Notes under the pieces: model-generated
Database searches by the model: none
Told to the model about the DNA's origin: nothing
What the model saw: the letters and a program-made list of their open reading frames with translations, nothing else
In this document: piece after piece, positions 16,549-39,634 of the stretch
How positions within the stretch are numbered: position 1 is the first letter of the stretch
How the letters are laid out: each line of letters starts with the position of its first letter
Position numbers and translations under genes: made by a program
Assembly: GCA_003134555.1 (NCBI GenBank)
Contig: PLBO01000054.1
Location: forward strand, 1 to 64,000
Direction: 5' to 3'
Origin: Actinomycetota bacterium
GTDB lineage: Bacteria; Actinomycetota; Acidimicrobiia; IMCC26256; PALSA-610
Length of the DNA: 64,000 nt

Positions 16549-16584
16549 TTGACAAGATGTGACTTTCTCGCCGATAATACCGGC
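16549..16584 (+). promoter_or_regulatory. Strong sigma-70-type promoter giving a leaderless mRNA
   Basis: TTGACA at 16549-16554 and GATAAT at 16573-16578 are separated by 18 bases. The ATG of the next gene lies six bases after the -10, where transcription should start, so the mRNA is expected to be leaderless. No Shine-Dalgarno sequence precedes this ATG. Confidence 0.75.
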
Positions 16585-18588: not shown

Positions 18589-19959
18589 GTGGACGATCAC
18601 CAAGCACTGCCGGAGCACGCGCAGAAGACCAGCGCGCCACACGCAAGCGAACTCGTGGCTGCGTGCGAGGAGGCATGGGCCGCGATCCAACGCCGCCATC
18701 CTGAGGTTCCCGATGCCGTAATCGTGCTCGGCAGTGGTGTCGAGCGCGGGCGGCTCGTGAAGTTGGGCCATTGGTGGGGCGGGCGCTGGATCGCTGATGG
18801 TGCCGTCCGCGGCGAAGTGTTGCTCGCGGGCGAAGCACTACACCTCGCACCCGAAGCGGTATTCGAGGTGCTGTTGCACGAAGCCGCGCACGGGCTGAAT
18901 GCGGCGCGGCGGATCCAAGATTCGTCAAGAGGCGGCCGCTACCACAACATCCGGTTCAAGGCGACCGCCGAGGACCTTGGACTCATCGTCGAACAGGCGC
19001 GCCCCTTCGGGTGGGCGAGGACGTCGCTCGCGCCGGTTGCACGTTCGCGGTATGACGCGGAGATCGCTCGTCTGGGCGAAGCCATGCGCATCGCGCGCCG
19101 CATCGAGGCCGACCCACGAATCGATGAGAGCTCGACGGACCAAGGCGCTGACTCCGGCACGAACGGCGGGACGCAGCCTCGACCCGAGCCGCCGCGGCCG
19201 GCGACCTGCGGTTGTGGCCGCCGAATGCGAATGGCGCCGTCGGTACTGGCCCAGGGTCCCGTGTTGTGCGGCGTGTGCGGTCGGGAGTTCTCGACATCGC
19301 GACAGCTGGAAGGCCGCGCCTCTTCTCCACGCGACATCGAAGCCGCGCACGATCCGCTTGCCGCGCGAGACGAGCAGACCGAGCTACCAGTCGTCCAATC
19401 ACCCATCCGATCGGATCTGAACGCGACCCAGCGCGAAGGACTGTCTGTACTCGTCGAACTCGGAACCCACGGCGACGGCGCGCTGCTTCTCGCGGAGACC
19501 GGCGCCTGGTACGCGGCCCGAGGAGCTAGAACACAACGGCCTCTGCTCGGCACAACTTGGGAGGAGGTCGAAGTCGCGAACCAGGCCGCGCGGGCAATGC
19601 TGAAACTCGACGGGACGCTGCGCGGACCGTCAGTCACTGCGGCAGGTCGCGAACTGAGCGTCGGCGAACTGGTCACGATTCACGACGCCGCAGACTCTCT
19701 CGTTGACGTCCTAGGCGCCGAACTCCCGCCGTTCGCCGTGTTTGGGACGGTCGAGCAAATCGACGGCGAACGCGCCCAGATCGACGTCGACTTCGCAACC
19801 GCGGGCCGCTTCACGATCGCGCTCGACTCCGCCGCCGCGGCGGCACTGAAGTACGGCTACGCGGATCTCGCAGCCGTCGCAAGCTCGACTTCGATCGAGA
19901 GTCAGTTGGTGACGTCGTCGCGCGGACACGAACCGCCGTCCATCGAGCTCTACCCGTGA
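18589..19959 (+). CDS. SprT-like zinc-metallopeptidase-fold protein
   Basis: A 456-residue protein with the SprT-type motif LLHEAAHGLNAAR (about residues 100-112) and, near residues 206-232, a four-cysteine zinc ribbon (CGCG and CGVCG). SprT/Spartan relatives act on DNA-protein crosslinks, and genes of this type are common in actinobacterial conjugative elements next to primase genes, as here. The C-terminal ~180 residues are unrecognised. The GTG at 18589 lacks a clear ribosome binding site; the real start could differ slightly. Confidence 0.7.
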   Translation: MDDHQALPEHAQKTSAPHASELVAACEEAWAAIQRRHPEVPDAVIVLGSGVERGRLVKLGHWWGGRWIADGAVRGEVLLAGEALHLAPEAVFEVLLHEAAHGLNAARRIQDSSRGGRYHNIRFKATAEDLGLIVEQARPFGWARTSLAPVARSRYDAEIARLGEAMRIARRIEADPRIDESSTDQGADSGTNGGTQPRPEPPRPATCGCGRRMRMAPSVLAQGPVLCGVCGREFSTSRQLEGRASSPRDIEAAHDPLAARDEQTELPVVQSPIRSDLNATQREGLSVLVELGTHGDGALLLAETGAWYAARGARTQRPLLGTTWEEVEVANQAARAMLKLDGTLRGPSVTAAGRELSVGELVTIHDAADSLVDVLGAELPPFAVFGTVEQIDGERAQIDVDFATAGRFTIALDSAAAAALKYGYADLAAVASSTSIESQLVTSSRGHEPPSIELYP

Positions 19960-20915
19960 CGGACCTCAACGTCGATACACCGCGTTCGGCTGCCCTCTCC
20001 TACGCAGCGCAAGGGTGGCCGGTCTTCCCATGTCATTCGATCGGCGCGCGGGGATGTTCGTGTTGCCAGCCCGACTGCTCATCGCCCGGCAAGCACCCTC
20101 GCATCGCAAGAGGGCTGCACGCCGCGAGCACGAATCGTGAGACCGTAGAGCGTTGGTGGCGGCGATGGCCTTCCGCGAACGTCGCCGTACGCACCGGAAT
20201 CGAGAGCGGGCTCGTCGTCATCGACATCGACCCGCAGCACGGCGGCTCGGGGACAATGCGCAGCCTCATCGCGAACCACTCTCCGCTCGCGCGAGGTCCG
20301 GTCGTCCGGACCGGAGCCGGAGGATGGCATCTGCTATTCGCTCATCCCGGCGAGCCGATTCGCAACTCCGCGGGAACACGACTCGGCGCGGGCATCGACG
20401 TACGAGGCGACGGCGGCTACGTGATCGCCCCACCCAGTCGTCACGCGAGCGGCAACCTGTATCGCTGGAACACTCCGCCCGAGCACCTCCCTCGACTCCC
20501 GGGTTGGCTGCTCGGAATGTTGCGAACTCCAGAACGAAGACAATCACCCGAAATACGTGAACCCATCCGAATCGACGACGCGCTCTCCGCGTGGGCTCGC
20601 GTCGCGCTCGACGGCGAAGCCGATCGCGTTCGAGCTGCGCCAAATGGCTCGCGGAATAGCACCCTCAATCGCGCGGCGTTCAGTCTTGGCCAGATCGTCG
20701 GAGCCGGAGTTCTCGACGCCTCCACAGTCGAACACGTCCTTACCGATGGAGCGATAGCGACGGGTCTCGGCGAACGCGAGGCCTTACTGACGATCCGCTC
20801 CGGGCTTCGAGCGGGACTGCAACATCCCCGAGAGCCCCGGTCTCGGAGCAGCGCGTCCCCGTCGGCCGCTCGACGCGAGGCAACAGTCGACGTCGGACTC
20901 GACATAGCGCCGTGA
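19956..20915 (+). CDS. PrimPol-type bifunctional DNA primase/polymerase N-terminal domain protein
   Basis: A 319-residue protein with the Prim-Pol fold: AAQGWPVFPC at the start, a CSCCQPDCSSPGKHP zinc-knuckle stretch, VVIDIDPQHGG (catalytic acidic pair) and the GGYVIAPPS strand near residue 150. Such proteins prime DNA on plasmids and ICEs. No helicase domain follows, so this is a stand-alone primase, perhaps for second-strand synthesis after transfer. GTG start overlapping the SprT-like stop. Confidence 0.8.
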   Translation: MTDLNVDTPRSAALSYAAQGWPVFPCHSIGARGCSCCQPDCSSPGKHPRIARGLHAASTNRETVERWWRRWPSANVAVRTGIESGLVVIDIDPQHGGSGTMRSLIANHSPLARGPVVRTGAGGWHLLFAHPGEPIRNSAGTRLGAGIDVRGDGGYVIAPPSRHASGNLYRWNTPPEHLPRLPGWLLGMLRTPERRQSPEIREPIRIDDALSAWARVALDGEADRVRAAPNGSRNSTLNRAAFSLGQIVGAGVLDASTVEHVLTDGAIATGLGEREALLTIRSGLRAGLQHPREPRSRSSASPSAARREATVDVGLDIAP

Positions 20916-21487: not shown

Positions 21488-21826
21488 ATGGCACAAGGCC
21501 CGGGACGTCCCGCGAAGCCCACTGAGTTCGACGAGGCAACACTGAAGACAGCCCGACGCGTGCTGCTGGATGTGGCACGCGAGCTGCGACTGCCTCGCGT
21601 GCGCTACCCGGCGTCGACGCGACGTGAACCGCAACGGACCGTGGAGGCGCCGCGACATCTTGATGTCGCAATCTTGGCCCTCGAGCTCAGTCACGTGATG
21701 GAACGATTGGCGGGTGAGCACGTCGCATTGGCCCGGGAACTGGACAAGGTGACGTGGGAAGACGTAGGTGGGGCGTTCGGGATTTCGATGCAGTCGGCAC
21801 ATCATCGTTTCCGGGAACCGTCATAG
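21488..21826 (+). CDS. Small helix-turn-helix-like protein
   Basis: A 112-residue protein with a C-terminal segment (TWEDVGGAFGISMQSAHHRFR) that reads like a helix-turn-helix of the sigma-region-4 or XRE type. The first 60 residues are charged. It is convergent with traA, overlapping its 3' end by six bases, so the two messages are antisense at their ends. It may regulate transfer. The ATG at 21488 is preferred over a GTG six bases upstream because a short -10-like TAGGCT lies just before it. Confidence 0.5.
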   Translation: MAQGPGRPAKPTEFDEATLKTARRVLLDVARELRLPRVRYPASTRREPQRTVEAPRHLDVAILALELSHVMERLAGEHVALARELDKVTWEDVGGAFGISMQSAHHRFREPS

Positions 21827-24800
21827 CTCGATACTCACGTCCGCGGCACGTTGTCGCGATTTCACGTTTGTGGCGATGGCAGTGTTGATCGCCGAGATCG
21901 CGATGTCGTACTCGCGGGCTGCTTCACGCGACGCGGGTCGGACGCCCAGGAGTTCTTGGTCGGCGCCTCCGGTGGCCTCGGTGACCGCGTCGGGATTGCG
22001 AGCGCGATAAACGGCCGTCGCGGCGACGGCGTGCCGCCAGGCACGGCGGTCGCGTTGGAGCGTTGGTTCCGAACCGAGGACGTCGCGGATTGCTGCGTCG
22101 GGGTTGTTGACGGCGGCGACGCGGACTTGGGTTTCGCGCGCTCGTTCCGCGCGCCGTACGACTTGGTGTTCGGCGACGAGATCCGAGTGGGCTTCGAGCC
22201 ACTCGTACCGGAGCGCCTGTCGATCTTCACTGGCGGCGAGCCGCGCGGAGGTGTGCGTGAGCGCGCGGTCGAGCGCCCGGAGAGGGGCGCGCGCCCGGTC
22301 CGGTCCTCGCTCCCCATTGTCGCGATCGCTCGGTGTGTCGGCCTCCACCGGCTGGTCGATGTTTCGAACTTCAGCCCAGGCCTGGCGGCGAGCGCGGATG
22401 GACTCGATCGTGTGCGTGGCCTTCTCGATTGCCGGGGTCATGTCGGCGGGCGCGCGTCGCATCTGGACGTCGAGTTGCCGCCGTCTCGCGGCCAGTTCGG
22501 CGAGCGTTCGGCCAGCGAGTGTTTCGGCGACCGCGTCGAGATCGGGGGATGCGTCGGCGGCCATGTGCGCGCTGCGGCGCCGCCCCAGGGCTTGGGCGAT
22601 ATCGCTGATGCCGAACGGCTGCGACTCGGTCGGCGTGTGGGCGAGTTCGTTGCTGACGTCCGGTTGGTTACCGTCCACGATGTAGATGTGCGCGCTCTGA
22701 CGGCCGCGAGTGAGGGCGACGTAGCCCTCCTCGAACGACGACAGATCGGTCGGGTGGTAGCGGGCGACCTGGTGGGTTGCACCTTGGACCCCGTAACTGG
22801 TGCGCGCGTAACCGTGCTCGAGCCGACCCGCGGCGAGGTAGTCGTTGGGAATGCGGATCGCGCCTTCCCGGTCGAACGCGACGACGACCTCGTGGTGGTC
22901 GAGGTCGGTTGCGATGATGGTCCCGGTGCTGCCGTTCTTGACGGACTCGCGTCCCTCGACGGCTCGGAGGCGGCGTTCGTTGCGGCGGGCGACGACTTCG
23001 TCGCCGACCATGAACTCCCGGCCCGCGATCACCAGCGGTTCGCCCGAGAGCTCACCGTTCGCTTTGAGCAGAGCCCGGGCGCGGTCGTTCAACGCCCGAC
23101 GGGTGGAGTTCGGGCCCGCGATCATCGGATCGACCCGTTCGTGCAAACGGGCCGCGTACCAGTCCGCGACGATCGCGTCGAAGGACTCCCCCGCCGTGCG
23201 GGACCGGACCACTTTGCCGGCCTCGTCGTAGCGGCCGAGCGCGTCGGCGACGTGACCGTCGCGATACTCCGCGATCGCGAGGCGCTCGGTGTGGTCTTCT
23301 TGACGGTTGTTGTCGACCAGACGCACCAGCCCGTCGCCGCGCTCGGCGCAGAGGCGGCGGAACATGCCGCCGACATCGACCGAACCGTGCTGATCGGGAT
23401 CGCCGACGAGACGGATTGCCCCACCCGCGCCGCGGACATGGGCCGCGAGGCGGGCGAGGTCGCGAGTGCCGAGCATCGACGCCTCATCGACAACCACCAC
23501 CGTCCCGCGGGCCAGACCGGGCGAGCTGCGGTCGCCGAGGTCCCAGAGCAGTCGAGTGACGGTGGATGCCGAGGCGCCGGTCGAGCGGGCGAACCCGGCG
23601 GCCTGCTCGAGTTCGGACGCTGCGGCGGCGGACACGGCGCAGCCGATGATCGGAACGCCGGCATCGATGTGGGCGGCGACGACCGCCTCGAGCGCGTAGG
23701 TCTTGCCCGCGCCCGGGCGTCCGGCGACGGGCTGCACGAACTCACCCGACGAACACACCGCCCGCACCATCGCGCACTGTTCGTCCGACAACTCGCCGCG
23801 CTGCGACACGACCCCGTGGACCGTCTCAGCCGCGATGACCGTCCCCGCCCGATCGGCTGGATGCGCCCACGCGAGGAGCCGCGCTTCGATCTGGACGAGG
23901 TCGGGAACGGTGTAGAGCTTCTGGGTCACCGACCGCGGTACAGACAGCCGTGCAGACCAAGACCCGTCGACCGAACCCTCAACCGATGTCTCAACAGACG
24001 TCTGCACGGATATCTGTACCGGTTCGGCGCGGTCGACCAACTGGACTCGGTCGCTCGTCAACAGCCGGTCCGCTATGCGTTCGATCTGTGCGGCGGTTGC
24101 GGACGCGCCGACCGCGGATGCGAGTGCCTCGATCACATCGGTACGGCGGAATGTCGCGGAGCGTTCGGTCAGGCCGTGGGGACCGACCAACCCATCGAGG
24201 CAACGATCGACCAATCGGGGCTCCAGCGTGGGTGGCGCGTTGCGGTCGAAACATCCGTCCGCGTCCACCGCGCCAAAGCCAACGGCGGCAGCCTCGTCGC
24301 GCCAGCGTTGCTCCAACGTCTCGACGTCGACGCTGTAGTCCTTCGCTTGACGGGTCTGCAGGGTCGCGACCTGCGCAGCGCGTGCCGACTGGCTCCCGGA
24401 CTCGGCGAGCACTTCCTCGATCTCGGCACGGCGTTTCGAGAACACCTGGATCACCTCGGCCGGTACGCCAACGACCTCGGCGTGACCGTTCACGACCGGC
24501 GTGAACTGCACGCCGAGACGGTCGGCGAGCAGATGCCGCAAGTGCGCTTGGTACAGATAGCCGGCCGCATGCGCGTGTTCGTACAGACCGATGCCGGCAA
24601 TGGCCCGCCACCACGCGTCGGCCGAATCGTCCACCGACGTCATGTTCGCGGTGACGACATGGGTGTGCAGCAACGGATCACCGGCCCGGCTGGTGCGATG
24701 ATCGAACGCGGCCGCGACGATCCCCGCCGACGACACCAGGTGTCGGTCCTTGCCGCCCTGGCGGGCGAAGACCGCGTTGGTCTCGTAGTAGCGGACGACC

Positions 24801-25453
24801 TCATCGACCGCCTCCGCATGCACACGTCGAATCTCGCCCCGCCGGCCATCGTCGGCGAGGGCCCACAAGACGCTCACGCTCTTCGGCGGCCGCAACGTCA
24901 GGTCATAGCCGGGACGTGCCTTGACCCTCAGACGCGACGCAGCGAATCGCTCGAGCTCGGTCCGGCTCACCGTCCACGCGTCGCTGCCGGCCTGACCGTT
25001 GCCTTCCGCTTTCACGCCAAATAGGTACGACTTCGGTTCGGTGACCGCCTCACCGTCGCCGGCCTCGGCGATGCGAGTGCGATACCGATCGCCTTCGCCC
25101 AACAAGCGACGGACATACTGACCAGAGACGCCGAGGTGGGCGGCCGCGCGGAGCGAATCGACGTGCTCCGACAGCTGCTCGCTGTCGGGCGTTCGATCTC
25201 GGCGTTTGGCTGCACGTTCGGCCGAGCCTTGGGCCGTGGCGAGATGGTCGCCGGTGTGCGGATGCTGACCCCGCAACACGCGCCGGAAGTGATCGGGGTC
25301 CACCTCGCCGGTCAATCCGAGTTCCACCGCGAGTGATCCAACCCAACGGCCTGGGTGTTCCCCGCGACCGCTGTAGTAGTCCTCCGCCGAGGTCGCGACC
25401 TCACCGACGTAGTACTCGGTCGCTCCCGCGCTCAACTTCCCGATGCTCAGCAC
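21821..25453 (-). CDS. traA: TraA: MobF relaxase - RecD-like helicase
   Basis: A 1210-residue conjugative relaxase of the TrwC/TraA type. It starts LSIGKLSAG with the catalytic tyrosines in EDYYSGRGE, and the metal-binding histidines lie in DPLLHTHVV. The helicase half has Walker A GRPGAGKTY, DEASMLG and GDPDQHGSV, and a UvrD-like C-terminal motif (SSFEEGYVALTRG). It nicks oriT, stays bound to the 5' end and unwinds the strand. I start it at GTG 25453, preceded by GAGGGAG at good spacing, because relatives begin MLSIGKL; the frame remains open to 25555. A 48-base coding stretch at 23960-24007 is a 12-bp repeat also found before the ParA-like gene. Confidence 0.88.
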   Translation of the reverse strand: MLSIGKLSAGATEYYVGEVATSAEDYYSGRGEHPGRWVGSLAVELGLTGEVDPDHFRRVLRGQHPHTGDHLATAQGSAERAAKRRDRTPDSEQLSEHVDSLRAAAHLGVSGQYVRRLLGEGDRYRTRIAEAGDGEAVTEPKSYLFGVKAEGNGQAGSDAWTVSRTELERFAASRLRVKARPGYDLTLRPPKSVSVLWALADDGRRGEIRRVHAEAVDEVVRYYETNAVFARQGGKDRHLVSSAGIVAAAFDHRTSRAGDPLLHTHVVTANMTSVDDSADAWWRAIAGIGLYEHAHAAGYLYQAHLRHLLADRLGVQFTPVVNGHAEVVGVPAEVIQVFSKRRAEIEEVLAESGSQSARAAQVATLQTRQAKDYSVDVETLEQRWRDEAAAVGFGAVDADGCFDRNAPPTLEPRLVDRCLDGLVGPHGLTERSATFRRTDVIEALASAVGASATAAQIERIADRLLTSDRVQLVDRAEPVQISVQTSVETSVEGSVDGSWSARLSVPRSVTQKLYTVPDLVQIEARLLAWAHPADRAGTVIAAETVHGVVSQRGELSDEQCAMVRAVCSSGEFVQPVAGRPGAGKTYALEAVVAAHIDAGVPIIGCAVSAAAASELEQAAGFARSTGASASTVTRLLWDLGDRSSPGLARGTVVVVDEASMLGTRDLARLAAHVRGAGGAIRLVGDPDQHGSVDVGGMFRRLCAERGDGLVRLVDNNRQEDHTERLAIAEYRDGHVADALGRYDEAGKVVRSRTAGESFDAIVADWYAARLHERVDPMIAGPNSTRRALNDRARALLKANGELSGEPLVIAGREFMVGDEVVARRNERRLRAVEGRESVKNGSTGTIIATDLDHHEVVVAFDREGAIRIPNDYLAAGRLEHGYARTSYGVQGATHQVARYHPTDLSSFEEGYVALTRGRQSAHIYIVDGNQPDVSNELAHTPTESQPFGISDIAQALGRRRSAHMAADASPDLDAVAETLAGRTLAELAARRRQLDVQMRRAPADMTPAIEKATHTIESIRARRQAWAEVRNIDQPVEADTPSDRDNGERGPDRARAPLRALDRALTHTSARLAASEDRQALRYEWLEAHSDLVAEHQVVRRAERARETQVRVAAVNNPDAAIRDVLGSEPTLQRDRRAWRHAVAATAVYRARNPDAVTEATGGADQELLGVRPASREAAREYDIAISAINTAIATNVKSRQRAADVSIEL
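23960..24007 (-). repeat. Four 12-bp repeats inside traA
   Basis: On the minus strand four successive 12-mers begin GTGCAGAC, GTTGAGAC, GTTGAGGG and GTCGACGG. They encode a Ser-Val-x-x-type tetrapeptide repeat within the linker between relaxase and helicase halves. The same 12-bp pattern lies at 37066-37113. Confidence 0.65.
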
Positions 25454-25757
25454 AAGCCACTCCCTCGACATCTCTCCGGGAGGGAATGGCGCGTCCGAGT
25501 GGCCGATCGCGACAAGAACAACTCGCAGGTGGTCTCCGAAGAGCGTGTAGCTCACCTTGCCCCGTAAGGGCAGTCACGGCACGTCCGCTGAGCAGGCCCG
25601 ACTCGGTGCGCCGATCCGTCGAATCCGACGGGTAGCGGTGAGTTGTTGGGATGAAAGTAGGGATGACGCTCGCCGCCGGTCGGCAAGAGTCAACCCGGCT
25701 CGCGGTCTCGGACGGTGATCACCCACCTCGAAACTCGTCAGCGTCGTGTGGAACTCC
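25454..25757. other. Region upstream of traA, with direct repeat copy A
   Basis: No gene. It holds the traA promoter, repeat copy A (25538-25606) and possibly oriT, which often lies beside mobF genes; I cannot identify the nic site. Confidence 0.4.
25538..25606. repeat. Direct repeat copy A (left flank of the 26-33 kb island)
   Basis: These 69 bases align without gaps to 33352-33420 with 13 mismatches by my count (about 81% identity), in the same orientation. Both copies include GTGTAGCTCACCT and CGGCACGTCC-CTGAGCA. They bracket the unusual operon. Confidence 0.7.
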
Positions 25758-25943: not shown

Positions 25944-26061
25944 CCGAAGACATTAGCTCACTTCTCCGTGTTTCTGTATTCCCGCAAATCTGTGACTCGG
26001 TGTGCCACGATGTACTCATGTCAGCAACTCACCGTCTCAGCCCGTGTGTACGGTGACGGCC

Positions 26062-27090
26062 ATGGAAGCTGACGGGGCGCTCAAGGTACGGGTCGGCGAT
26101 CGCGTGCTACGCGCGACACCGGCGTTCCGCTCGTACTGGTACCTCGCCGCGGAGCGTCAGCGCATCTTCTTCAAACGACTTCGAGGCGAGCAGTCGCCTT
26201 GGACTGAGGATGCGGTTCTCAGCTCACACCGGTTCACGAACGCGTACCGCGCGTCAGACCGGGTCAGCCAGTACGTCATCAACGAAGTGGTGTACGGCGA
26301 GTCTGTCGACCCTCGCTCACTGGTGCTTCGAGTCTTGCTGTTCAAGATCTTCAACCGAGTCGACACGTGGAAGGCGCTTGAAGGCGCAGTCGGCAAGATC
26401 ACAGTCGACACGTTCGACGCGGCTCTGTTCGACGACGTCCTTGAAGAGCGCCGAGCGCACGGGCGACGCATCTACTCCGCTGCCTACATCATGCCGAGCC
26501 CGAAGTTTGGCGAGCTTCGAAAGCACACCAACCACCTTCGGCTCCTTGACAAGCTATTGGTCGATGGATCCGTCGATGAGATCGTGGCCGCGCCGACCCT
26601 CAAGAGGCTCTACGAAACGCTCGTGGCGGTCCCGTCATTTGGACCCTTCCTCGCATTCCAGTTCGCGATCGATCTCAACTACAGCGATCTGTACGCCTTT
26701 TCGGAGATGGACTTCGTAGTCGCCGGACCCGGCGCGCACGACGGGATTGCGAAGTGCTTCGCGGACGTTGACGACCTGCAGGCGGAAGATGTGATCCGCG
26801 CCGTGACCGAACACGCGCCCAGCTTCTTGGAGTCGTTAGGTATCCAGTTTGAAGCGCTGTGGGGCCGACCGCTCCAGTTAATCGACTGCCAGAACCTATT
26901 CTGTGAGGTAGGTAAGTACGCGCGCCTCGTGCACCCGGAGCTATTGGGTCGGAGCGGAAGGACCCAGATCAAGCAGAAGTACCAGCCATCATCGTTGCTC
27001 CCCGTGCGTCCGAAATACCCACCGAAGTGGGCGTTGCAATACGACGAAGCGATCCCAGTGGCCGCTTCTCCCCTCCGAGCCGCCGTCTAA
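26062..27090 (+). CDS. Protein like the helical domain of 5-hmdU DNA kinases / thymine hypermodification proteins
   Basis: A 342-residue all-helical protein. Blocks FTNAYRASDRVSQYVINEV, RVLLFKIFN, GPFLAFQFAIDLNYS and VAGPGAHDGIAKCF match my memory of the helical domain of phage base-hypermodification proteins (5-hmdU DNA kinase / alpha-glutamyl-putrescinyl-thymine pyrophosphorylase clade). In that family the domain acts on modified thymine in DNA. No P-loop kinase domain is present, so a kinase function is not implied. The ATG at 26062 follows GTGACGGCC with a poor ribosome binding site. It converges on the eight-gene operon and may belong to the same system, given the MazG and thymidylate-synthase-like genes there. 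Confidence 0.6.
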   Translation: MEADGALKVRVGDRVLRATPAFRSYWYLAAERQRIFFKRLRGEQSPWTEDAVLSSHRFTNAYRASDRVSQYVINEVVYGESVDPRSLVLRVLLFKIFNRVDTWKALEGAVGKITVDTFDAALFDDVLEERRAHGRRIYSAAYIMPSPKFGELRKHTNHLRLLDKLLVDGSVDEIVAAPTLKRLYETLVAVPSFGPFLAFQFAIDLNYSDLYAFSEMDFVVAGPGAHDGIAKCFADVDDLQAEDVIRAVTEHAPSFLESLGIQFEALWGRPLQLIDCQNLFCEVGKYARLVHPELLGRSGRTQIKQKYQPSSLLPVRPKYPPKWALQYDEAIPVAASPLRAAV

Positions 27091-27120
27091 GGCGCACGAG
27101 GTTCGTGACTCCGCTCCGCG

Positions 27121-27897
27121 CTAACCCAATCCGAGGCGCCGCGCCGCGCTCTCGATGGCGTTCCACAATGCAACCCAGTCGACGCGATTGAGCATCGGGT
27201 CGAGGCGGTTCGCCGCGATGTTCAACACGATGGCACCGAGCGCTGCCAGACCAATCCGCGCAGCGCCTCGCAGCTTCGAGGGTTGGCCTTGTAGATGACG
27301 GAGGTTCGCGTCCATCTCGTCGAGTTCCGTGCGCAGGTGAAGTATCGACTCCACGTGTGTGCCGAATTCACCGAGTTCCTCCGCTGCGCGTCGTAGCTCA
27401 ACCAAGAGCGGTTCAAGGATTCGGATGGTGGCGACGACGAAGGGATCTGCGGCTGACGGTGTCATGTCCAAGAGGACCTGCGCCATGAAGACATCCAGTG
27501 GGGGATGCTCTGTCGGCTCGTCGGGGAGGAACACGAACTCCATCACGTCAGCGAACGCTGGAGAGGCGTCGGTGGATCCTATGTAGGCTCCGCTACCAGA
27601 TCTCGGCTGATCGCTAGGGAAGAGCTCGGCACCAATGGGCAGAGTGAGCGCTCGGTCGTCCCAGAGCTGGACGCCGGCAAACACCCAAGGCTGGAAGTCG
27701 TATGGATCGTGCACTCTCGGAGTGCGTGTAGCACGACCCCACGCGGACCGCAGAACGAGAGGCGGCGGCGTGCTGGCGTCGGCGTCGGTTATGAGGATCC
27801 GAGATCTGGACAGGGCCACCGTGAATCCACGGCCAACAACGTGTTCCGGGTCGACCTGTGACGAGAACCACGAGTCCTCGCCCCGATGGGCAGTCAT
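27121..27897 (-). CDS. Unknown protein with coiled coil and possible C-terminal membrane helix
   Basis: A 258-residue protein, last gene of the operon. The N-terminal ~130 residues are beta-rich (VALSRSRILITDAD, QPWVFAGVQLWDD). Residues about 165-215 form a charged coiled coil (RRAAEELGEFG to DANLRHLQ), followed by a hydrophobic stretch near 218-235 (IGLAALGAIVLNIAA) that may insert in membrane. I do not recognise it. As the final gene, translated from an ATGA overlap with the MazG gene, it could be an effector or a membrane adaptor; that is speculation. Confidence 0.65.
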   Translation of the reverse strand: MTAHRGEDSWFSSQVDPEHVVGRGFTVALSRSRILITDADASTPPPLVLRSAWGRATRTPRVHDPYDFQPWVFAGVQLWDDRALTLPIGAELFPSDQPRSGSGAYIGSTDASPAFADVMEFVFLPDEPTEHPPLDVFMAQVLLDMTPSAADPFVVATIRILEPLLVELRRAAEELGEFGTHVESILHLRTELDEMDANLRHLQGQPSKLRGAARIGLAALGAIVLNIAANRLDPMLNRVDWVALWNAIESAARRLGLG

Positions 27898-28817
27898 TCG
27901 ACCTGGGCGGGGTCGCCGGCGATGGGAGGTTCAAAGGTCAGCGTGCGTGCATCTAGGTCGGCGGTAACGACGCCACCGCGATGCTCCACCACCTGGCGGA
28001 AGACCAAGTACCCCCGAAGGATTGCGAGCTGCCAGTCGGCGCGGCTGCGGCTGGAAACCTCGAGGTGGCAGGTCATCTTCCCGCACATCTTGACGATTGA
28101 CGGCGGAACGTTCGTCGCCGTCTTGAAATAGGTGTGCTCGCCTGCCTCGGAGAAGATGTACGCCGTCACTCCCTCTTCGATCGCGGCGGCTCGCCCCCCG
28201 TCTTGGACGCGGTCGGTCGCGGGCTCATCGGTTCGTTTGCAGTCAAGGAGGCGTCTCAAGACGGGCGACCAACCGAGCACGGCCATGTGCGCAAGGTGGA
28301 ACACGTCGTGGTAGCGGTAGTCATCATCGTGTTCGCTGTTGTCATCGAGTGGATCGCCGATAGTCAATTCGTCGTTGGTTCGTACACCCCGGTACATGCG
28401 AACGCGCTGCAAGGATTCGCCAGAGTTGCTGGTGTCTTGCGTCTCGACGAGGGTGACGGTGAGACGGCGGGGAAGCTGTTGGTCCGGACTGAGGTGGGCG
28501 TCGTATCTGGCAAGCGGTTGCACGGCTCGGCTCGAGTCGAAAAGATCACGGGACTTGGTCAGGTTCTTCTCGGCAATCATGCTGAGGTCGAGCTCGTTGC
28601 GTCGAGCGAGGGCCGCGGCGTACCAGAGGACGTCGCCAAGCTCCTCCTCGACTTCGTCTCGGAATGCGCGGTAGCCCTGCTTGTCGCGCTCGCGCTTCTT
28701 GTACTCGGCCATGAGCTGGCCAACCTCACCTCCGAGGCCAATGAGCGGAAGTAGCCGGTCGTCGATGGGCAGCCTGTCGGTGCCTGCAGAGAGCTCTTGA
28801 TAGTCGCTTAGATCCAT
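27894..28817 (-). CDS. MazG-like nucleotide pyrophosphohydrolase with a C-terminal domain
   Basis: A 307-residue protein. Residues 1-90 are an all-alpha NTP pyrophosphohydrolase (MazG) domain: GLGGEVGQLMAEY and DEVEEELGDVLWYAAAL give the acidic metal-binding ExxE/ExxD pattern, although the first motif reads EVGQ with Gln in place of the usual second Glu. A variable beta-containing stretch follows, then a helical C-terminal domain (YRYHDVFHLAHMAVLGWSPVLRRLL, AAIEEGVTAYIF), of the type I remember from phage MazG proteins linked to base modification. Such enzymes remove or monitor (d)NTPs. The ATG has a 16-base gap to the protease gene; the stop overlaps the next gene. Confidence 0.8.
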   Translation of the reverse strand: MDLSDYQELSAGTDRLPIDDRLLPLIGLGGEVGQLMAEYKKRERDKQGYRAFRDEVEEELGDVLWYAAALARRNELDLSMIAEKNLTKSRDLFDSSRAVQPLARYDAHLSPDQQLPRRLTVTLVETQDTSNSGESLQRVRMYRGVRTNDELTIGDPLDDNSEHDDDYRYHDVFHLAHMAVLGWSPVLRRLLDCKRTDEPATDRVQDGGRAAAIEEGVTAYIFSEAGEHTYFKTATNVPPSIVKMCGKMTCHLEVSSRSRADWQLAILRGYLVFRQVVEHRGGVVTADLDARTLTFEPPIAGDPAQVE

Positions 28818-28833
28818 CTGGCGCTTCCCGTCT

Positions 28834-29562
28834 TCAGTAGGTGAGCATCGTGCGAGGGTCGAGTACCGCGGCTTGAACTGCGAAGGCGGTCAGGTAGTCG
28901 ATGGGTATCCATCCGTAGCCACCGGCACCCCATCCGGGACCCCAGCTGTTCCGGACGAGGAGGCGTCGCGTCAGCCCATCTGCGGAAGTGGCCGCTCCGA
29001 CGACAACGACGCCGTGGTAATCGCCGAGGGCGCTCGTGATGATGGGGACTGCGATCTCCCCATCGAGGTCGGGGTTCTCGAACTCGTGCGTGAGCTCGAT
29101 GAGCAACACGACGACGAACTCCGCGGCGAGCGCAAGCTCGATGAGATCCTCGACGCCGTCGTGGGCGATTGGAACGTCGAGCACGTTGGCACAGTGCCAG
29201 TCGACGTTGGCGGTCGCTGGCGGATCTGGCTCGGTGTCTGCGCCGAGGGTGCCGTCGTAAGGCCAAGTTGCTTCGGACGGTTGGCCTCGCTCGTCCATAG
29301 CGTTCGAAGCGTCAGCGATCGTGGTTCCGTTGTGGTCGCCGCGCCCGTGGTCGACGCAGTGCTGCCACACCGGTTCGACAGCGAGCGCTTCGACTTCTGC
29401 TGTTGCACGAACGAGTGATCGGAGGGCTTCGTGCGCCGTCGTCGCGGCGAACGGAACACATAGTGGTCGTGCACCCTGTTGCCGGACGTCCGGTACGTGA
29501 TCGCGGAGGTCGACAGGTGGTCTGGCCAGGCTCGTTGCGAGCCGGGTTGCTAGCGAACGCAT
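28834..29562 (-). CDS. Papain-like (C1A) cysteine protease
   Basis: A 242-residue protease with a full papain triad. Q29 and C35 are in QGARPLC, at exactly the Q19-C25 spacing of papain; H183 is in DYHGVVVVGA; N205 is in RNSWGPGWGAGGYGW. No signal peptide or pro-domain is visible, so it should be cytosolic and needs some other restraint. The preceding gene, six bases away, encodes a protein with a chagasin-like inhibitor fold, whose family blocks C1 proteases. I infer a toxin- or effector-like protease held inactive by that partner. Substrate unknown. Confidence 0.85.
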   Translation of the reverse strand: MRSLATRLATSLARPPVDLRDHVPDVRQQGARPLCVPFAATTAHEALRSLVRATAEVEALAVEPVWQHCVDHGRGDHNGTTIADASNAMDERGQPSEATWPYDGTLGADTEPDPPATANVDWHCANVLDVPIAHDGVEDLIELALAAEFVVVLLIELTHEFENPDLDGEIAVPIITSALGDYHGVVVVGAATSADGLTRRLLVRNSWGPGWGAGGYGWIPIDYLTAFAVQAAVLDPRTMLTY

Positions 29563-29568
29563 GCGCGC

Positions 29569-30915
29569 CTACTCGTCGAGGTTTGAATCGTCGGGGTCAA
29601 GGGGCGGGGGAAGCGCGGTGAGTTGGCGCTCGTGCACTTCGGTGACCCACGTGTCATCCTCGTCGGCGCCGGCGAGCTGTTCGATAGAAAAGGCGTTGCG
29701 TCGAGTCTCGACAACGGCGTGGAGCGAGTACTCCTGGATGGTCGCGCTGGGACCGTACGGGCTCCGGTACGCCAGCCGGACGGTGTGCGCGCCAGGCTGT
29801 CCGAATCGGACACCCAAGAGCCTTCGGCCGGTCCCGCCCGCGAGCGGCCCCGGATCCCAAGTGGCCGCGTCAACGCTGCGGTCGGGGGACGCCGTAGCGA
29901 GTCGCATGGCACGCGCGTCCTTCGCGCGCGCGGCTGGAGCGCGACGGGGAACGTACTGGTCACCGACGACGTCCACTCCAGCATGCTCGGTCGAGTCGTC
30001 GCGTTGTGGTTCGGCATCCCTGGCGCGGGCTCGAAGCCGCTTGATGATCGCTTCCGGAGCACGATGGCGGCGATTTGCGTCAGCCAAATCGTTCAGAAAC
30101 CGCGCCTGGGACTCCGCTCGGTGCCGCGCGTCGATCGTTTCGGCGAACGACACAGGTGCAGGTGTGTCGATCACGCTGTGCGACTCGTCAGCAAGCATCC
30201 ACCGGTAGCCGCTGCTTCGGTTCTCTGGAAGGGAGATGACGGCTTCGTCCTCTATGCGGAGGGAAAGGACCTGGTCGTCCCATTGCTCGTCGACGGGCCA
30301 GACGTCGGCCCATCCGTTGATCGGGCGTCGGCCATGCGCCAGATCCGTCTTGATTGCGAGCGGACGCTGTCGAAGTAGTTCTTGGGCCCCGCCGCCAGCG
30401 ACCACGTTCAGATTCACCAGTTGTCGGACCGCCGCTTCGTAGCTCACACCGGCTTCGCGTGCGAGGGCGTAGCACTGCTGCGCGTTGATCGGCTCATGGG
30501 AGGACGGACGCACGCGTTGGAGGATTGACAGCACGAGGGACGGCGGCATCAGGAGGTTCCCCGCAAAGATCTGTGCAAGTCGCTCGCGTTCGGCGGGAGC
30601 CGGTCCGAAGATCTGCTCGTGACTGTCCGCTACAACGCCATGCTCAAGTCGCCAATGGCCAAGCTCGTGGCCGGCGGTGTACCGCTGAACTGTGAGAGGG
30701 CGCTGCGTAGTGATCAGAACGCCACCGCTGCCGTCCGGCACGAACGCTCCGAGAGCGTTGTCGAGCGGCATGAACGCGAGCCACAACCCGACTCGCTCGC
30801 ACAGACCAAAGACGTCAATCTGGCGACTCTGATCTACGCCTGCCTCGTCAAGGAGCGACAGCGCGGCTTCAGCAGCCTCGATGCGTTGCTGCCAGGTACG
30901 GTTCGGATTCGCCAT
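29569..30915 (-). CDS. ImmA/IrrE metallopeptidase fused to chagasin-like protease inhibitor
   Basis: A 448-residue protein. Residues 1-180 form an ImmA/IrrE zinc-peptidase domain (AGHELGHW, HELGH at 83-87, then a Glu-containing helix with FAGNLLMPP). Residues about 213-400 resemble the chagasin (I42) cysteine-protease-inhibitor fold: the L4 signature appears as ENRSSGYRW at 231-239, and the closing strands GTGRRLLGVRF and AHTVRLAYRSP fit the chagasin C-terminus, where family members have an RPW-type loop. About 90 residues, partly Arg-rich, are inserted between the two halves. I infer that it inhibits the papain-like protease made by the next gene and senses or relays a signal through its own peptidase. 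It starts with a TGATG overlap on the XRE gene. Confidence 0.75.
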   Translation of the reverse strand: MANPNRTWQQRIEAAEAALSLLDEAGVDQSRQIDVFGLCERVGLWLAFMPLDNALGAFVPDGSGGVLITTQRPLTVQRYTAGHELGHWRLEHGVVADSHEQIFGPAPAERERLAQIFAGNLLMPPSLVLSILQRVRPSSHEPINAQQCYALAREAGVSYEAAVRQLVNLNVVAGGGAQELLRQRPLAIKTDLAHGRRPINGWADVWPVDEQWDDQVLSLRIEDEAVISLPENRSSGYRWMLADESHSVIDTPAPVSFAETIDARHRAESQARFLNDLADANRRHRAPEAIIKRLRARARDAEPQRDDSTEHAGVDVVGDQYVPRRAPAARAKDARAMRLATASPDRSVDAATWDPGPLAGGTGRRLLGVRFGQPGAHTVRLAYRSPYGPSATIQEYSLHAVVETRRNAFSIEQLAGADEDDTWVTEVHERQLTALPPPLDPDDSNLDE

Positions 30916-31313
30916 CAGCTCTTCGGATTTCGCTTCCGAGGTGTGGGGCGTCGCCCTGTTCCCGCCACATCGCCGCCGCCAGGTCGGCCAGCAGCAGCGA
31001 GGAACTCAGCGAATCTGAGCACCTGTTCCTTGTCCTGATCTGAGAGTTGCGCAGTCGCGCGGAAGAGCGGCTCGACGTCGTGAAGCTCGATCTGCTCATC
31101 GCCCAGGAGCCAACCCACCGGCCGGCGATAGAGCCGAGCGAGTCTGCGGAGTTCGACCCCCGACACTTTGCGCTTCCCGGCCTCAAGCGCAGACAGACTG
31201 GTTCGCGGGATCCCTAGCGCGCTCGCGACGTCTTCCTGTAGCAGCCCGACGTACTCCCGTGCTTCGCGAAGCCGGTTGCCAATCGCGGCGTGTTCTTCAA
31301 GTTCGTCAGACAT
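30915..31313 (-). CDS. XRE-family transcriptional regulator
   Basis: A 132-residue protein with an N-terminal XRE helix-turn-helix (residues about 10-65: REYVGLLQEDVASALGIPR, SLSALEAGKRKVSG) and a basic tail. The following gene encodes an ImmA/IrrE peptidase, and in ICEBs1-type and many toxin-antitoxin loci such a peptidase cleaves its XRE partner. The likely operator is the 17-bp palindrome between the -35 and -10 of the operon promoter at 33023-33039. It is the fourth gene of the operon and lies 48 bases after the AcpS gene, the largest gap in the operon, so a second internal promoter is possible. Confidence 0.85.
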   Translation of the reverse strand: MSDELEEHAAIGNRLREAREYVGLLQEDVASALGIPRTSLSALEAGKRKVSGVELRRLARLYRRPVGWLLGDEQIELHDVEPLFRATAQLSDQDKEQVLRFAEFLAAAGRPGGGDVAGTGRRPTPRKRNPKS

Positions 31314-31361
31314 CGTTACTCCGGTCGAAGGTGACTCCTGGCGTACGCGTCAGCACAGTGC

Positions 31362-31781
31362 TCACGCCCGAACAGCGAGCGCGATCGCTGCCGCCCATGA
31401 CGACTCGTGGGTAATGGACACGTGACATGTCCTGACGTCCAGCTCCTCTGCTGCTTCGGCCGCTCGCCCTCGGAGCACAACTTCGGGAGCCCCAGATGCT
31501 CTGGCGGTGATCTCGATGTCGATGGGGTCGATCTCGCCGACGCCAGACCCGAGGCTCTTCATCACCGCTTCCTTCGCCGCCCATCGGCCAGCGAGCCGTT
31601 CGACGCGCCGCTCTGTTGCATTCTGCTCGGGAACGGTCCAGTACGCGTCAACGAAGGACTGCCCTCCCGCGTCAAGGAGAGACCGCATCAGTTCTATGTC
31701 AACGAGATCGATTCCGATCCCAGAGACATCCCCGAACATGTCCGCCGCGACGGAACGGATAAGGCGATCAGGAAGGTCCAC
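31362..31781 (-). CDS. acpS: AcpS-type 4'-phosphopantetheinyl transferase
   Basis: A 139-residue holo-acyl-carrier-protein synthase family member. It has the GIGIDLVDIE motif near residue 22, the LAGRWAAKEAVMKSLG block near 83 with the catalytic Lys/Glu pair, and the VSITHESSWAAAIA strand near the end. It should transfer phosphopantetheine from CoA to a Ser of a carrier protein. Two genes upstream lies a short protein with an ACP-like helix pattern, so the pair probably works together. GTG start at 31781 with GGAGG eight bases upstream. Finding an AcpS on a conjugative element outside a polyketide cluster is unusual. Confidence 0.88.
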   Translation of the reverse strand: MDLPDRLIRSVAADMFGDVSGIGIDLVDIELMRSLLDAGGQSFVDAYWTVPEQNATERRVERLAGRWAAKEAVMKSLGSGVGEIDPIDIEITARASGAPEVVLRGRAAEAAEELDVRTCHVSITHESSWAAAIALAVRA

Positions 31782-31784
31782 CGA

Positions 31785-32639
31785 TCACACCTCCGACGAC
31801 GCCGCTGCGACGGCTGTGAGGGCTTCGTCAACGAACTGGTCTACTACGCCGCCAAACGTGGCGGGTTGGGCATCGGCCATTGTGGCGTGGACCACAAGTT
31901 CGCCCGGAACACATCCACCTTGCTGGCACAGAAACTGCAGGAGCGCCGACAGACCCACAAGGTTTCCGTACGCCTTCTCCACGAGGTACTGGTGGCGATA
32001 CACCGCAGTGCAATGCAGTTGGCCCTCGTACAACGTCAAGTCGATGTGAGTAAGGCAGGGAAAGCTTCGGGTTCGCTGGTCCGTAACGGCGTAGACCTGT
32101 ACACCAGAGATCGGCAGGTCGGTGTCGAGCGCGTCGGCACCAAGGTCAATGTCGAGTGTGTTGTTGGTGCGTCGGCCGGCGCGCGCTTGACTCCGAAGAC
32201 GAGCGATCCTCAACTCCAGTTGGTTCGTTCCACCGGCCACCTTGCCCGGCCAGGTGATCATCCGGGAAAAATATGTGCCGGACCTGTTTGCGCCGACGGT
32301 CCGCAGCATCGGGAGCATCCCGATGTAGCTCTCGTAGAGCGAGGCTGCAGCGTCATCCAACACAGCTTCCGAATCCGTCGCGATTGAAGGGTGCCAGTCG
32401 ATACAAGGATCGCGATAAAGCGAGGAGGGAAAGATCGTCTCTGCGACCGTATCGATCGACTGCGAACCGTTATGCGCAAGAAGCTTTTCGAGCTCGTCCC
32501 GGACTCCCATGACTTCAGCGCCCGGATCGCCCACGGCAGTGACAACATGCGTGAGCCGTCCACCCGGTGCCCGCCGGACCAGTTCGAACGTGCGAAGCCA
32601 GGCCTCGCTTAGCGTCGATGCGCTCACGAGATGGCTCAT
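31785..32639 (-). CDS. Thymidylate-synthase-like protein
   Basis: A 284-residue protein with thymidylate-synthase/dCMP-hydroxymethylase features. C195 in FPCLTHIDLTLYEG aligns with the nucleophile of PPC-type synthases; R215 (LHCTAVYRH) and N226 (AYGNLVGL) follow at exactly the C-R and R-N spacings (20 and 11) of C146, R166 and N177 in E. coli ThyA as I recall them. The strand and helix GGCVPGELVVHA also fits. The RSxD motif is degenerate (RHQY) and the terminal DxHLY is not conserved, so this may not be an ordinary dTMP maker; modification at C5 of a pyrimidine nucleotide is a better guess. ATG at 32639 in a TGATG overlap with the preceding gene. Confidence 0.75.
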   Translation of the reverse strand: MSHLVSASTLSEAWLRTFELVRRAPGGRLTHVVTAVGDPGAEVMGVRDELEKLLAHNGSQSIDTVAETIFPSSLYRDPCIDWHPSIATDSEAVLDDAAASLYESYIGMLPMLRTVGANRSGTYFSRMITWPGKVAGGTNQLELRIARLRSQARAGRRTNNTLDIDLGADALDTDLPISGVQVYAVTDQRTRSFPCLTHIDLTLYEGQLHCTAVYRHQYLVEKAYGNLVGLSALLQFLCQQGGCVPGELVVHATMADAQPATFGGVVDQFVDEALTAVAAASSEV

Positions 32640-33013
32640 CAAGCGACCGCGCCGTGAGAGACCGGGTGAAGGGTCCTATGGAGCAAGCGAGCCACACCCC
32701 CGACGCTTCGAAGCTCATCGCGGTCACTGACCCGCGACAAGTTGACCGGCTTTTGGACGCCGATCGCCTTGCCGACTTCGTTGATCAGCCACACGGCGAT
32801 AAGGCTCGGGATGCCGGGCGTTCCATCGGCTGCAGAGGTCAACTCAAGCCCAGGCCGTCCCGACCGAAGAACCTGCTCGAGGTCATGTTCCAGTCCTTCG
32901 ACCGAAAGTGACCTTGCCTCGGCGAGCGGATTCGTGAGCGAAACGGCCCCACCAGCCGGACTAGCGCTCGGCGGGGGAGGGGGAGGGGCGAATGATTTCA
33001 CGTCGGACTTCAT
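32639..33013 (-). CDS. Acyl-carrier-protein-like small protein, first gene of the operon
   Basis: A 124-residue protein. A Pro/Ser/Ala-rich tail (residues 8-25, with a run of seven prolines at 10-15 and around) precedes a helical domain. Residues 66-112 read GIPSLIAVWLINEVGKAIG, then RVSDRDELRSVGGVARLL, the spacing of an acyl carrier protein around its DSL serine and final helices; here the Ser70 is in PSL rather than DSL. With an AcpS two genes downstream, Ser70 is the likely phosphopantetheine site. The loss of the conserved Asp must be tolerated. The start codon coincides with the predicted transcript start, giving a leaderless mRNA. Confidence 0.6.
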   Translation of the reverse strand: MKSDVKSFAPPPPPPSASPAGGAVSLTNPLAEARSLSVEGLEHDLEQVLRSGRPGLELTSAADGTPGIPSLIAVWLINEVGKAIGVQKPVNLSRVSDRDELRSVGGVARLLHRTLHPVSHGAVA

Positions 33014-33020
33014 GACCTAC

Positions 33021-33049
33021 AGTGTCGGATAATCCGACATCCTTGTCAA
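33021..33049 (-). promoter_or_regulatory. Operon promoter with 17-bp palindromic operator
   Basis: On the minus strand TTGACA (33049-33044) is followed after 17 bases by GACACT (33026-33021), which keeps the key A2 and T6 of a -10. The predicted start is at or next to the ATG at 33013. Between and over the elements is the perfect palindrome TGTCGGAT-A-ATCCGACA at 33023-33039, well placed for repression by the XRE protein of the operon. Confidence 0.75.
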
Positions 33050-33285: not shown

Positions 33286-33381
33286 CTAGGGAATGCGCAG
33301 ACCGGAGATGCTCCGGCCCACCACCAGGCGCTGGATCTCCGAGGTCCCGTCGAAGATCGTGTAGCTCACCTCGTTCCATAA
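33286..33381 (-). pseudogene. C-terminal scrap of an acyl-CoA dehydrogenase
   Basis: The minus strand reads IFDGTSEIQRLVVGRSISG and ends at a TAG (33286-33288). This is the nearly invariant C-terminal signature of acyl-CoA dehydrogenases. Upstream of about 33381 the frame no longer resembles the family. Such a 3' tail is what an element leaves or carries when it integrates in, or excises from, the end of a dehydrogenase gene. Confidence 0.75.
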
Positions 33382-33420
33382 GAGCCGTGCCGGCACGTCC
33401 CCTGAGCACGCCCGACTCTG
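33352..33420. repeat. Direct repeat copy B (right flank of the 26-33 kb island)
   Basis: This partner of 25538-25606 shares about 81% of 69 positions in the same orientation. Its left ~30 bases are also the acyl-CoA dehydrogenase tail, and it contains the perfect 12-bp palindrome CGTGCCGGCACG. The pair has the layout of degenerate attachment sites. Confidence 0.7.
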
Positions 33421-38182: not shown

Positions 38183-39370
38183 GTGCGCGGCCGCATCGTG
38201 AAGAAGAGCAACAACTACTACGTCATCATCGAGGAGGGCATCGACGGCAGCACAGGTCTTCGCAGGCGGACGTCCCATGCCGCCGGGGTATCCCGTCGCG
38301 CCGCCGAACACCTCCTGGCGGAGCTTCTGGAACAGAAGCGGACCGACACCTACGTAGAGCCGTCGCGCCTTTCGCTGAGCGAGTATCTCATCGACGAGTG
38401 GCTGCCTGCGACGAAGCACGAGGTACGGCGCAGCACCTTCGATGCGTACCGTCGAAGCATCGAGCTCCACGTGCTACCCCGAATCGGAACGCTGAAACTG
38501 CAGAAGCTGCGGCCCGTCGACCTCACCAAGTTCTATGCGGATCTCCTGCACCAAGGGCGGATCGACTCGACGGGCGGACTCAGTCCGAAGACGGTGCACA
38601 ACATCCATCAGATTCTGCGCAAGGCGCTCGAGGATGCCGTACGTCAAAATTACGTCGTACGCAACGCTGCGGCGTCAGCCAAGGTCCCCAGAACCCGAGC
38701 GACGCGTCGGACCGAGATGCGCTATTGGAACGCGGGCGAGCTGCGGCAGTTCCTCCACGCTGCGCTCGGCTCACCTCATTTCGCGGCTTGGTATCTGTCC
38801 GCCAACACGGGGATGCGGCGAGGCGAGGTGCTCGGTCTCCGGTGGCGCGATGTGAATCTCGAAGCCGGACGGCTCGCGGTGCGGCGGGCACTTCTCTCGG
38901 TCGCCTACGAGATCGTCGAGAGTGATGCGAAGACCGACCGAAGTGAGCGTGTCGTCGATCTTGACGCGCGCACGGTCAAGGTCCTGCGTGAACATCAGGC
39001 GAGGCAGCACGACGAGCGCGATTCCATCGGCATCGGCTACAGAGATTCGGGGCTCGTGTTCGCCAAGATCGACGGCGCACCGATTCATCCGGAGAGTTTC
39101 AGCCAGGCGTTCGAACGAAAGGCTCGCGCCGCCGGCGTGCCGCGCATCCGGTTGCACGACCTTCGTCACACGCACGCAACGCTTCTCCTTCAAGCCGGCG
39201 TCCCGCCCAAGGTGGTCAGCGAACGGCTCGGGCACGCAACCGTCGCATTCACCATGCAGGTCTACGCCCACGTCATCCCAGGCATGCAGGCTGACGCCGC
39301 GTCGGCGTTCGGCAACCTCGTCTTTCTCGACGACGAGAACGGTCCTCGGTCAAGCAATGACGAAGGTTGA
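38183..39370 (+). CDS. int: Tyrosine recombinase (integrase)
   Basis: A 395-residue phage-type integrase. It has an N-terminal AP2-like/arm-binding part, a SAM-like core-binding domain (about 65-160) and the catalytic domain with R in TGMRRGEVLGLRW, HDLRHTHATLLLQAG (H and R), LGHATVAFT (H) and the nucleophile Tyr in MQVYAHV. It catalyses integration and excision of the ICE. GTG start at 38183 with AGGAGG eight bases upstream. The adjacent tRNA gene, with its 3' end facing the integrase, is the expected attachment site. Confidence 0.93.
   Translation: MRGRIVKKSNNYYVIIEEGIDGSTGLRRRTSHAAGVSRRAAEHLLAELLEQKRTDTYVEPSRLSLSEYLIDEWLPATKHEVRRSTFDAYRRSIELHVLPRIGTLKLQKLRPVDLTKFYADLLHQGRIDSTGGLSPKTVHNIHQILRKALEDAVRQNYVVRNAAASAKVPRTRATRRTEMRYWNAGELRQFLHAALGSPHFAAWYLSANTGMRRGEVLGLRWRDVNLEAGRLAVRRALLSVAYEIVESDAKTDRSERVVDLDARTVKVLREHQARQHDERDSIGIGYRDSGLVFAKIDGAPIHPESFSQAFERKARAAGVPRIRLHDLRHTHATLLLQAGVPPKVVSERLGHATVAFTMQVYAHVIPGMQADAASAFGNLVFLDDENGPRSSNDEG

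Positions 39371-39557: not shown

Positions 39558-39634
<77 letters not shown>

Follow-up and report, generated by a model that had tools for sequence, protein, structure and literature searches.

A thymidylate-synthase-like protein is encoded with an acyl carrier protein and a CapP/CapH-type regulator pair in a mobile operon of putative conflict function

The window, by which we mean the whole 64,000-nucleotide stretch of contig PLBO01000054.1 from an Actinomycetota bacterium, carries at positions 26002-33013 a module encoding an acyl carrier protein (ACP), a thymidylate-synthase-like (TS-like) protein, an AcpS, a CapH-type repressor, an ImmA/IrrE-chagasin protein, a papain-type protease and a MazG-MazG_C protein, together with a convergent HMUDK_hel protein. 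The original prediction, whose coordinates covered the first three of these genes only, had described ACP-like, TS-like and AcpS open reading frames, and all three were recovered there on the minus strand. The operon opens with the gene for the 124-residue ACP, with its predicted attachment site at Ser70 (32639..33013, minus strand), followed by the TS-like gene (31785..32642, minus), which probably starts not at the TTG at 32642 but at the ATG at 32639, where start and ACP stop share the sequence TGATG. Downstream on the same strand lie the genes for an AcpS-type phosphopantetheinyl transferase (31362..31781), an XRE/CapH-type helix-turn-helix repressor (30915..31313; HTH_3, 3e-11; PADLOC capH, 5.8e-15), an ImmA/IrrE (M78) metallopeptidase with an HELGH motif and a fused chagasin-type I42 cysteine-protease inhibitor domain (29569..30915; PF06114, 2e-12; PF09394, 7.2e-8; PADLOC capP, 3.1e-17), a papain-family (C1) cysteine protease with assignable triad residues Cys, His and Asn (28834..29562; PF00112, 1.6e-8) and a MazG nucleotide pyrophosphohydrolase domain joined to MazG_C (27894..28817; PF18722, 3.7e-68; PF03819, 1.2e-4). 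By their families, the repressor and the adjoining HExxH protease form a CapP/CapH-type pair.

A further minus-strand gene (27121..27897), which shares 4 nt with the MazG gene, encodes a 258-residue protein without assigned function; profile searches gave no confident family and the other loci no match, and its membership of the module is uncertain. Convergent to the operon is the gene for the HMUDK_hel protein, named for the 5-hmdU DNA kinase helical domain (26002..27090, plus; PF18723, 6.8e-98), which may start at the ATG at 26062. Profile searches found neither a P-loop kinase domain nor an adjoining kinase gene in the window module; in other loci a thymidylate kinase is fused to HMUDK_hel or adjoins it. 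Homologues of HMUDK_hel occur in many phage genomes, including that of the thymidine-hypermodifying phage M6. No enzyme that could load the ACP (ligase, acyltransferase or ketosynthase) was found in the module or in any of its homologous loci.

Upstream of the ACP gene we identified a -35-like box TTGACA (33044..33049, minus), followed after 4 nt by the perfect palindrome TGTCGGATTATCCGACA with 8-bp arms and a 1-nt centre (33023..33039, minus) and, after a further 10 nt, by the start codon. The TGTCGGATTATCCGACA motif occurs once per locus, at the start of the operon, in many actinobacterial loci, in the locus of a Chloroflexota MAG and on a Sphingomonas plasmid, and the box and its distance from the operator are kept in most of the aligned actinobacterial and Chloroflexota loci. 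When these loci were searched as reversed sequence (765 kb), the palindrome had no match at two or fewer mismatches. Several predicted open reading frames begin with MSEYPTL, which is no more than an in-frame translation of the operator.

On one side of the operon is a gene for a TrwC relaxase (21821-25555), on the other an integrase gene (38183-39370) near a tRNA-Met (39558-39634). With a T4SS coupling protein (14264-16249), a Prim-Pol (19956-20915), the relaxase, the integrase and the tRNA-Met, the element that bears the module is an integrative conjugative element (ICE; 14264-39634) with defence cargo; within the window, no convincing second copy of an att repeat was found for its insertion at tRNA-Met. 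The same element carries a SIR2 and HerA pair, a known anti-phage system (4059-6936, plus; PADLOC, 1.7e-107 and 2.9e-131), and RmrT-like and RmrA-like proteins (16246-18293, plus; RmrA, 5.3e-97), the latter an HTH and ImmA/IrrE fusion and as such a second CapP-like regulator on the element. A 68-nt direct repeat (25537-25604 and 33351-33418, 84% identical), the right copy of which lies within the apparent 3' end of an acyl-CoA dehydrogenase gene on the minus strand, flanks the whole module and is possibly a footprint of its insertion. An 889-residue open reading frame at 462-3128 (minus) resembles HNH-type CBASS effector models over residues 107-211 (2.5e-25); outside this segment the frame is perhaps not a single gene.

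The small first protein had been proposed to be an ACP from the helix spacing around Ser70, and the family analysis bears this out. In an alignment of 19 sequences of the ACP family Ser70 is the only invariant column, and the family profile matches ACPs of the PDB first (E 6e-4) with this serine aligned on the DS motif. The AF2 model, of moderate confidence (pLDDT 71), places helices at residues 38-52, 70-84, beginning at Ser70, and 98-115, and most of its Foldseek matches, the top ones included, are ACPs, though all are weak (E 0.28 or worse). Among the ACPs of homologous loci in other phyla (n=8) the DS motif is invariant, four of the eight match Pfam PP-binding (PF00550; best 1.2e-7) and two are already annotated as acyl carrier proteins in their records; hhalign superposed the window-type, actinobacterial profile on these proteins from end to end, serine on serine (E 7.7e-12). 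Because of this homology we rejected the view that the protein is not a true ACP, despite the silence of Pfam and NCBIfam on the window protein taken alone.

The AcpS expected two genes away is present as well, with a PF01648 match of 7.7e-14 (52 bits against a cut-off of 25) and the AcpS motifs; the one other PF01648 match in the genome is an Sfp-type phosphopantetheinyl transferase. The replacement of DSL by PSL was also correctly read at the outset; the relatives carry P, A, S, K or T before the serine, or else D-S. A residue other than Asp or Glu at this position was found only in ACPs of loci with their own AcpS, and the loci that have no AcpS keep an Asp there (Glu in L042). PSL might thus be explained by an ACP family with its own AcpS in the locus, and the pattern, which largely follows one clade, is suggestive of a dedicated ACP-AcpS pair.

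For the TS-like protein the original prediction needs one correction. C195, R215 and N226, counted from the ATG (Cys196, Arg216 and Asn227 from the TTG), do stand at the ThyA spacings of 20 and 11, and across 24 relatives the Cys and the Asn are invariant; the Arg is not, being Ala in the deltaproteobacterial members. The Asp of the RSxD motif is lost as predicted, with Tyr in its place, and compared with canonical TSs, including the TS-family protein of phage M6 and the second TSs of some loci, the family shows the same change from Asp to Tyr together with loss of THxY. The position of the catalytic Glu is Glu or Gly. TIGR03283 is matched by the window protein at 4e-10 with 39.5 bits, far under the cut-off of 174.6, and all 24 members of the TS-like family match it individually, likewise below the cut-off. 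The AF2 model (pLDDT 88.5) gave 395 Foldseek matches in the PDB at E<=0.001, and those listed are all TS-fold enzymes, among them the CMP hydroxymethylase MilA and a phage dCMP hydroxylase. Judged from these comparisons, the protein has the TS fold, the Cys and the pyrimidine-binding Asn, but not the full catalytic and folate set, and we do not file it as a thymidylate synthase. In TS, the RSxD Asp contacts the pterin of folate. Because this residue is lost, the usual donor site appears altered, while the nucleophile and the recognition of the pyrimidine appear retained. A role as the housekeeping TS of the host is not supported, since the folate-site residues are lost and the protein occurs in only 8 of the 395 genomes of the class; a search of the host genome that covered the ThyA family only gave no match.

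These 8 genomes keep the order ACP, TS, AcpS, HTH, ImmA, C1 and MazG, and their HMUDK_hel gene is either convergent or lies upstream. Among 84,980 species genomes a scan recovered 31 loci, including those of Kribbella, Saccharothrix, Frankia, Arthrobacter, a Chloroflexi MAG, Pseudomonas and deltaproteobacteria, and further loci came from plasmid and viral records. The loci are spread over Actinomycetota, Chloroflexota, Pseudomonadota, Cyanobacteriota, plasmids and one phage. A chance neighbourhood was rejected, as the gene order recurs in unrelated genomes at 50-60% protein identity. The census comprised 39 non-redundant loci chosen by the TS-like protein, so that its presence is by construction and the other counts are results. 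Every untruncated locus (38 of 38) has the ACP, the repressor and the ImmA/IrrE protein beside the TS-like protein, and all three, with MazG, recur in two loci found later on viral contigs by TS-like alignment alone (L061 and L062). A functional linkage of ACP and TS-like protein is thereby strongly supported. The remaining genes are more variable (out of 39: HMUDK_hel 31, C1 28, AcpS 25, MazG 24, thymidylate kinase 14, radical SAM 6, dCTP-deaminase-like 5, UDG 4 and a second TS 4), and some of the 11 loci from which the C1 gene is missing are truncated. In all actinobacterial-type loci the ACP gene stands directly before the TS-like gene; in the non-actinobacterial loci it stands immediately before the repressor and ImmA/IrrE genes, not the TS gene. 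Apparent ACP-TS and AcpS-HTH fusions were rejected, the long reading frames in L011 and L016 being overlapping frames or a frameshift.

Single loci add several observations. In L042, L046, L053 and L054 (Pseudomonas, Sulfitobacter and Sphingomonas) a UDG-family protein beside MazG replaces HMUDK_hel. In L062 (4475-7703) the genes for ACP, HTH, ImmA/IrrE, TS-like protein and MazG are flanked by what we read by eye as genes for a phage terminase and a portal protein. In Candidatus Frankia californiensis (L031:2111-3461) the ImmA/IrrE gene is broken into three open reading frames, and this copy is probably decaying.

Because the palindromic operator recurs at operon starts, control of the operon by the co-encoded repressor and ImmA/IrrE protease is likely, by analogy with CapP/CapH and PprI/DdrO; PprI is reported to sense single-stranded DNA (PMC10904395). 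The accessory genes all act on dU or dT nucleotides or on uracil-type DNA bases (thymidylate kinase, dCTP-deaminase-like protein, MazG, HMUDK_hel, UDG and the second, canonical TS). The rest of the operon, namely the repressor, the ImmA/IrrE-chagasin protein, the C1 protease, MazG and HMUDK_hel, points to modification of a DNA base and to a role in defence or conflict.

Starting from gene content and order, homology, the operator and the taxonomic spread, we infer the following chemical and biological steps. The CapH-type repressor would bind the palindrome where it separates the -35 from the -10 box and would be cleaved by the CapP-type ImmA/IrrE protein upon DNA damage or infection, as the protein families and the conserved operator suggest. 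AcpS would place phosphopantetheine on Ser70 of the ACP, the residues concerned being conserved. The Cys of the TS-like protein would attack C6 of dUMP, with the ACP-bound group as donor instead of methylene-folate, and the donor might be delivered either through attack of C5 on an acyl thioester or through trapping of a C5-methylene intermediate by the phosphopantetheine thiol. Supply and activation of the nucleotide would fall to MazG-MazG_C in the window and to thymidylate kinase or dCTP-deaminase-like proteins elsewhere, and the modified base, once in DNA, would be acted on by the HMUDK_hel protein or by the UDG-family protein that stands in its place in some loci. The papain-like protease, which the chagasin domain fused to ImmA/IrrE would restrain, may be a regulator or a cell-killing effector. 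Taken as a whole, the reading of the operon as an inducible, horizontally moving and probably anti-phage conflict system whose product or substrate is a C5-modified deoxyuridine nucleotide, with use of an ACP-carried group, stands, in our judgement, about evenly balanced between right and wrong. The missing loading enzyme, the silence of Pfam on the window ACP and its moderate model, and the variable Arg of the TS-like protein weigh against it, and the partners in the operon may act in separate branches. The narrower proposal, that a folate-independent TS homologue takes its C5 substituent from the phosphopantetheine arm and so yields an unknown deoxyuridine derivative for phage defence, is tentative, and we lean somewhat against it. 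There is a real chance that the chemistry of the module is categorically new.

The main rival to the ACP as carrier is an ACP with a regulatory or structural role, which through its arm (phosphopantetheine or acyl) would report the metabolic state and stabilise or gate the TS-like or the ImmA/IrrE protein. Regulatory and structural interactions of ACPs are known from ACP-SpoT and from mitochondrial ACP-LYR. Such a role would agree with the absence of a loading enzyme from every locus and with the non-actinobacterial gene order, in which the ACP adjoins the regulators; it fits less well with the position of the ACP gene directly before the TS-like gene in all actinobacterial-type loci, and it leaves the donor to be explained, given the lost folate donor site. 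On balance we regard it as unlikely, but worth keeping in view.

Defence by way of the ACP-carried group, the reading that we prefer, also has to be weighed against hypermodification of the mobile element's own DNA, which would serve anti-restriction in the manner of phages M6 and ViI and not an attack on phages. An ICE, plasmids and the late region of a phage do harbour modules, and HMUDK_hel and TS relatives work in the thymidine hypermodification of phages (PMC6449724). A damage-inducible control of the CapP/CapH type and a protease-inhibitor pair would, however, be unusual for constitutive DNA marking, and systems of E. coli with TS, dNMP kinase and 5-hmdU DNA kinase domains block phages (DefensePredictor, 2026 study, PMC13092281). 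Self-modification is consequently a minority reading, to which we give limited weight. The sporadic distribution, the ICE with its SIR2-HerA pair, the capP and capH matches and these phage-blocking systems of E. coli would, by analogy, rather suggest a defence role.

It appears improbable that the papain-like protease is the effector and that the TS-like protein, ACP and HMUDK serve as a sensor of foreign, phage-type nucleotides that frees the protease from chagasin. Inhibitor and protease genes adjoin in many loci and the loss of several catalytic TS residues could leave a binding-only protein, but 11 of the 39 loci, truncated ones among them, lack the C1 gene, and the TS Cys, needless in a mere sensor, is invariant. 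That the small protein merely resembles an ACP and is unmodified, next to an unrelated housekeeping AcpS, is very hard to credit: the PSL motif, the missing Pfam match of the window protein and the finding of only an Sfp-type enzyme as a further phosphopantetheinyl transferase in the genome would fit, but they are set against profile homology to true ACPs, the invariant Ser and an AcpS in mid-operon in 25 loci.

If the preferred reading of an ACP-borne donor is true, a TS relative tied genomically across phyla to an ACP, with a dedicated AcpS in many cases, would bring carrier chemistry of the fatty-acid and polyketide style into the modification of nucleotides or DNA. Should the narrower proposal hold, the nucleotide chemistry would form a class of its own and the immune pathway would be new in kind. 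The module is a testable candidate source of unknown modified bases in bacterial or phage DNA, and likewise a candidate explanation for what TS and 5-hmdU-kinase domains do in the anti-phage systems validated of late; its conserved operator offers a simple handle for induction.

Compared with known systems, the module shares with the ACP/AcpS pairs of fatty-acid and secondary metabolism a probable ACP-like helix layout, the predicted phosphopantetheine Ser and the AcpS partner; it differs in that its locus has no acyl-chain enzymes, the DSL motif has degenerated in the actinobacterial branch and the partner is TS-like. The TS-like protein has the fold, the catalytic Cys and the uracil-side Asn in common with methanogen-type TSs and dCMP-CMP hydroxymethylases (TIGR03283, MilA), but lacks the folate-contacting RSxD Asp and the THxY residues. 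TSs and their hydroxymethylase relatives are known to take the one-carbon unit from folate. With the CapP/CapH (PprI/DdrO) immune operons the module shares a repressor that fits the capH model of PADLOC and an ImmA/IrrE protein that fits the capP model, whereas its ImmA/IrrE protein has an extra chagasin domain beside a papain-like protease and the regulated genes are not those of CBASS.

The thymidine hypermodification of phages M6, ViI and phiW-14 likewise combines a TS-family enzyme with HMUDK_hel, which in phage M6 is the stand-alone gp55 beside the TS gene; these phages, however, use a canonical hydroxymethylase of the TS type to make free 5-hmdUMP, neither an ACP nor regulation by CapP/CapH was seen in them, and the TS-like protein of the module forms a separate, divergent branch. 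Phage SP-15 has an 'acyl carrier protein reductase', which was dropped as a precedent, since the TS of that phage is ThyX-like and, according to the title of the work cited for it, ribose label enters the side chain. Our literature search did not find an ACP described in such a system, and an earlier mention in older surveys (Iyer 2013, Burroughs 2015, Lee 2022) is possible. The main text of the DefensePredictor study (PMC13092281) does not mention ACP, AcpS, phosphopantetheine, papain, chagasin or IrrE, and its systems are likened to the module by their domains; distant DNA searches for the validated E. coli system with L041 and L046 gave no match. In these systems, as in the module, TS is combined with 5-hmdU-kinase domains, there with phage validation, and thymidylate kinase, HMUDK_hel, MazG_C and UDG occur both in the relatives of the operon and in the validated or predicted systems of that study (PMC13092281).
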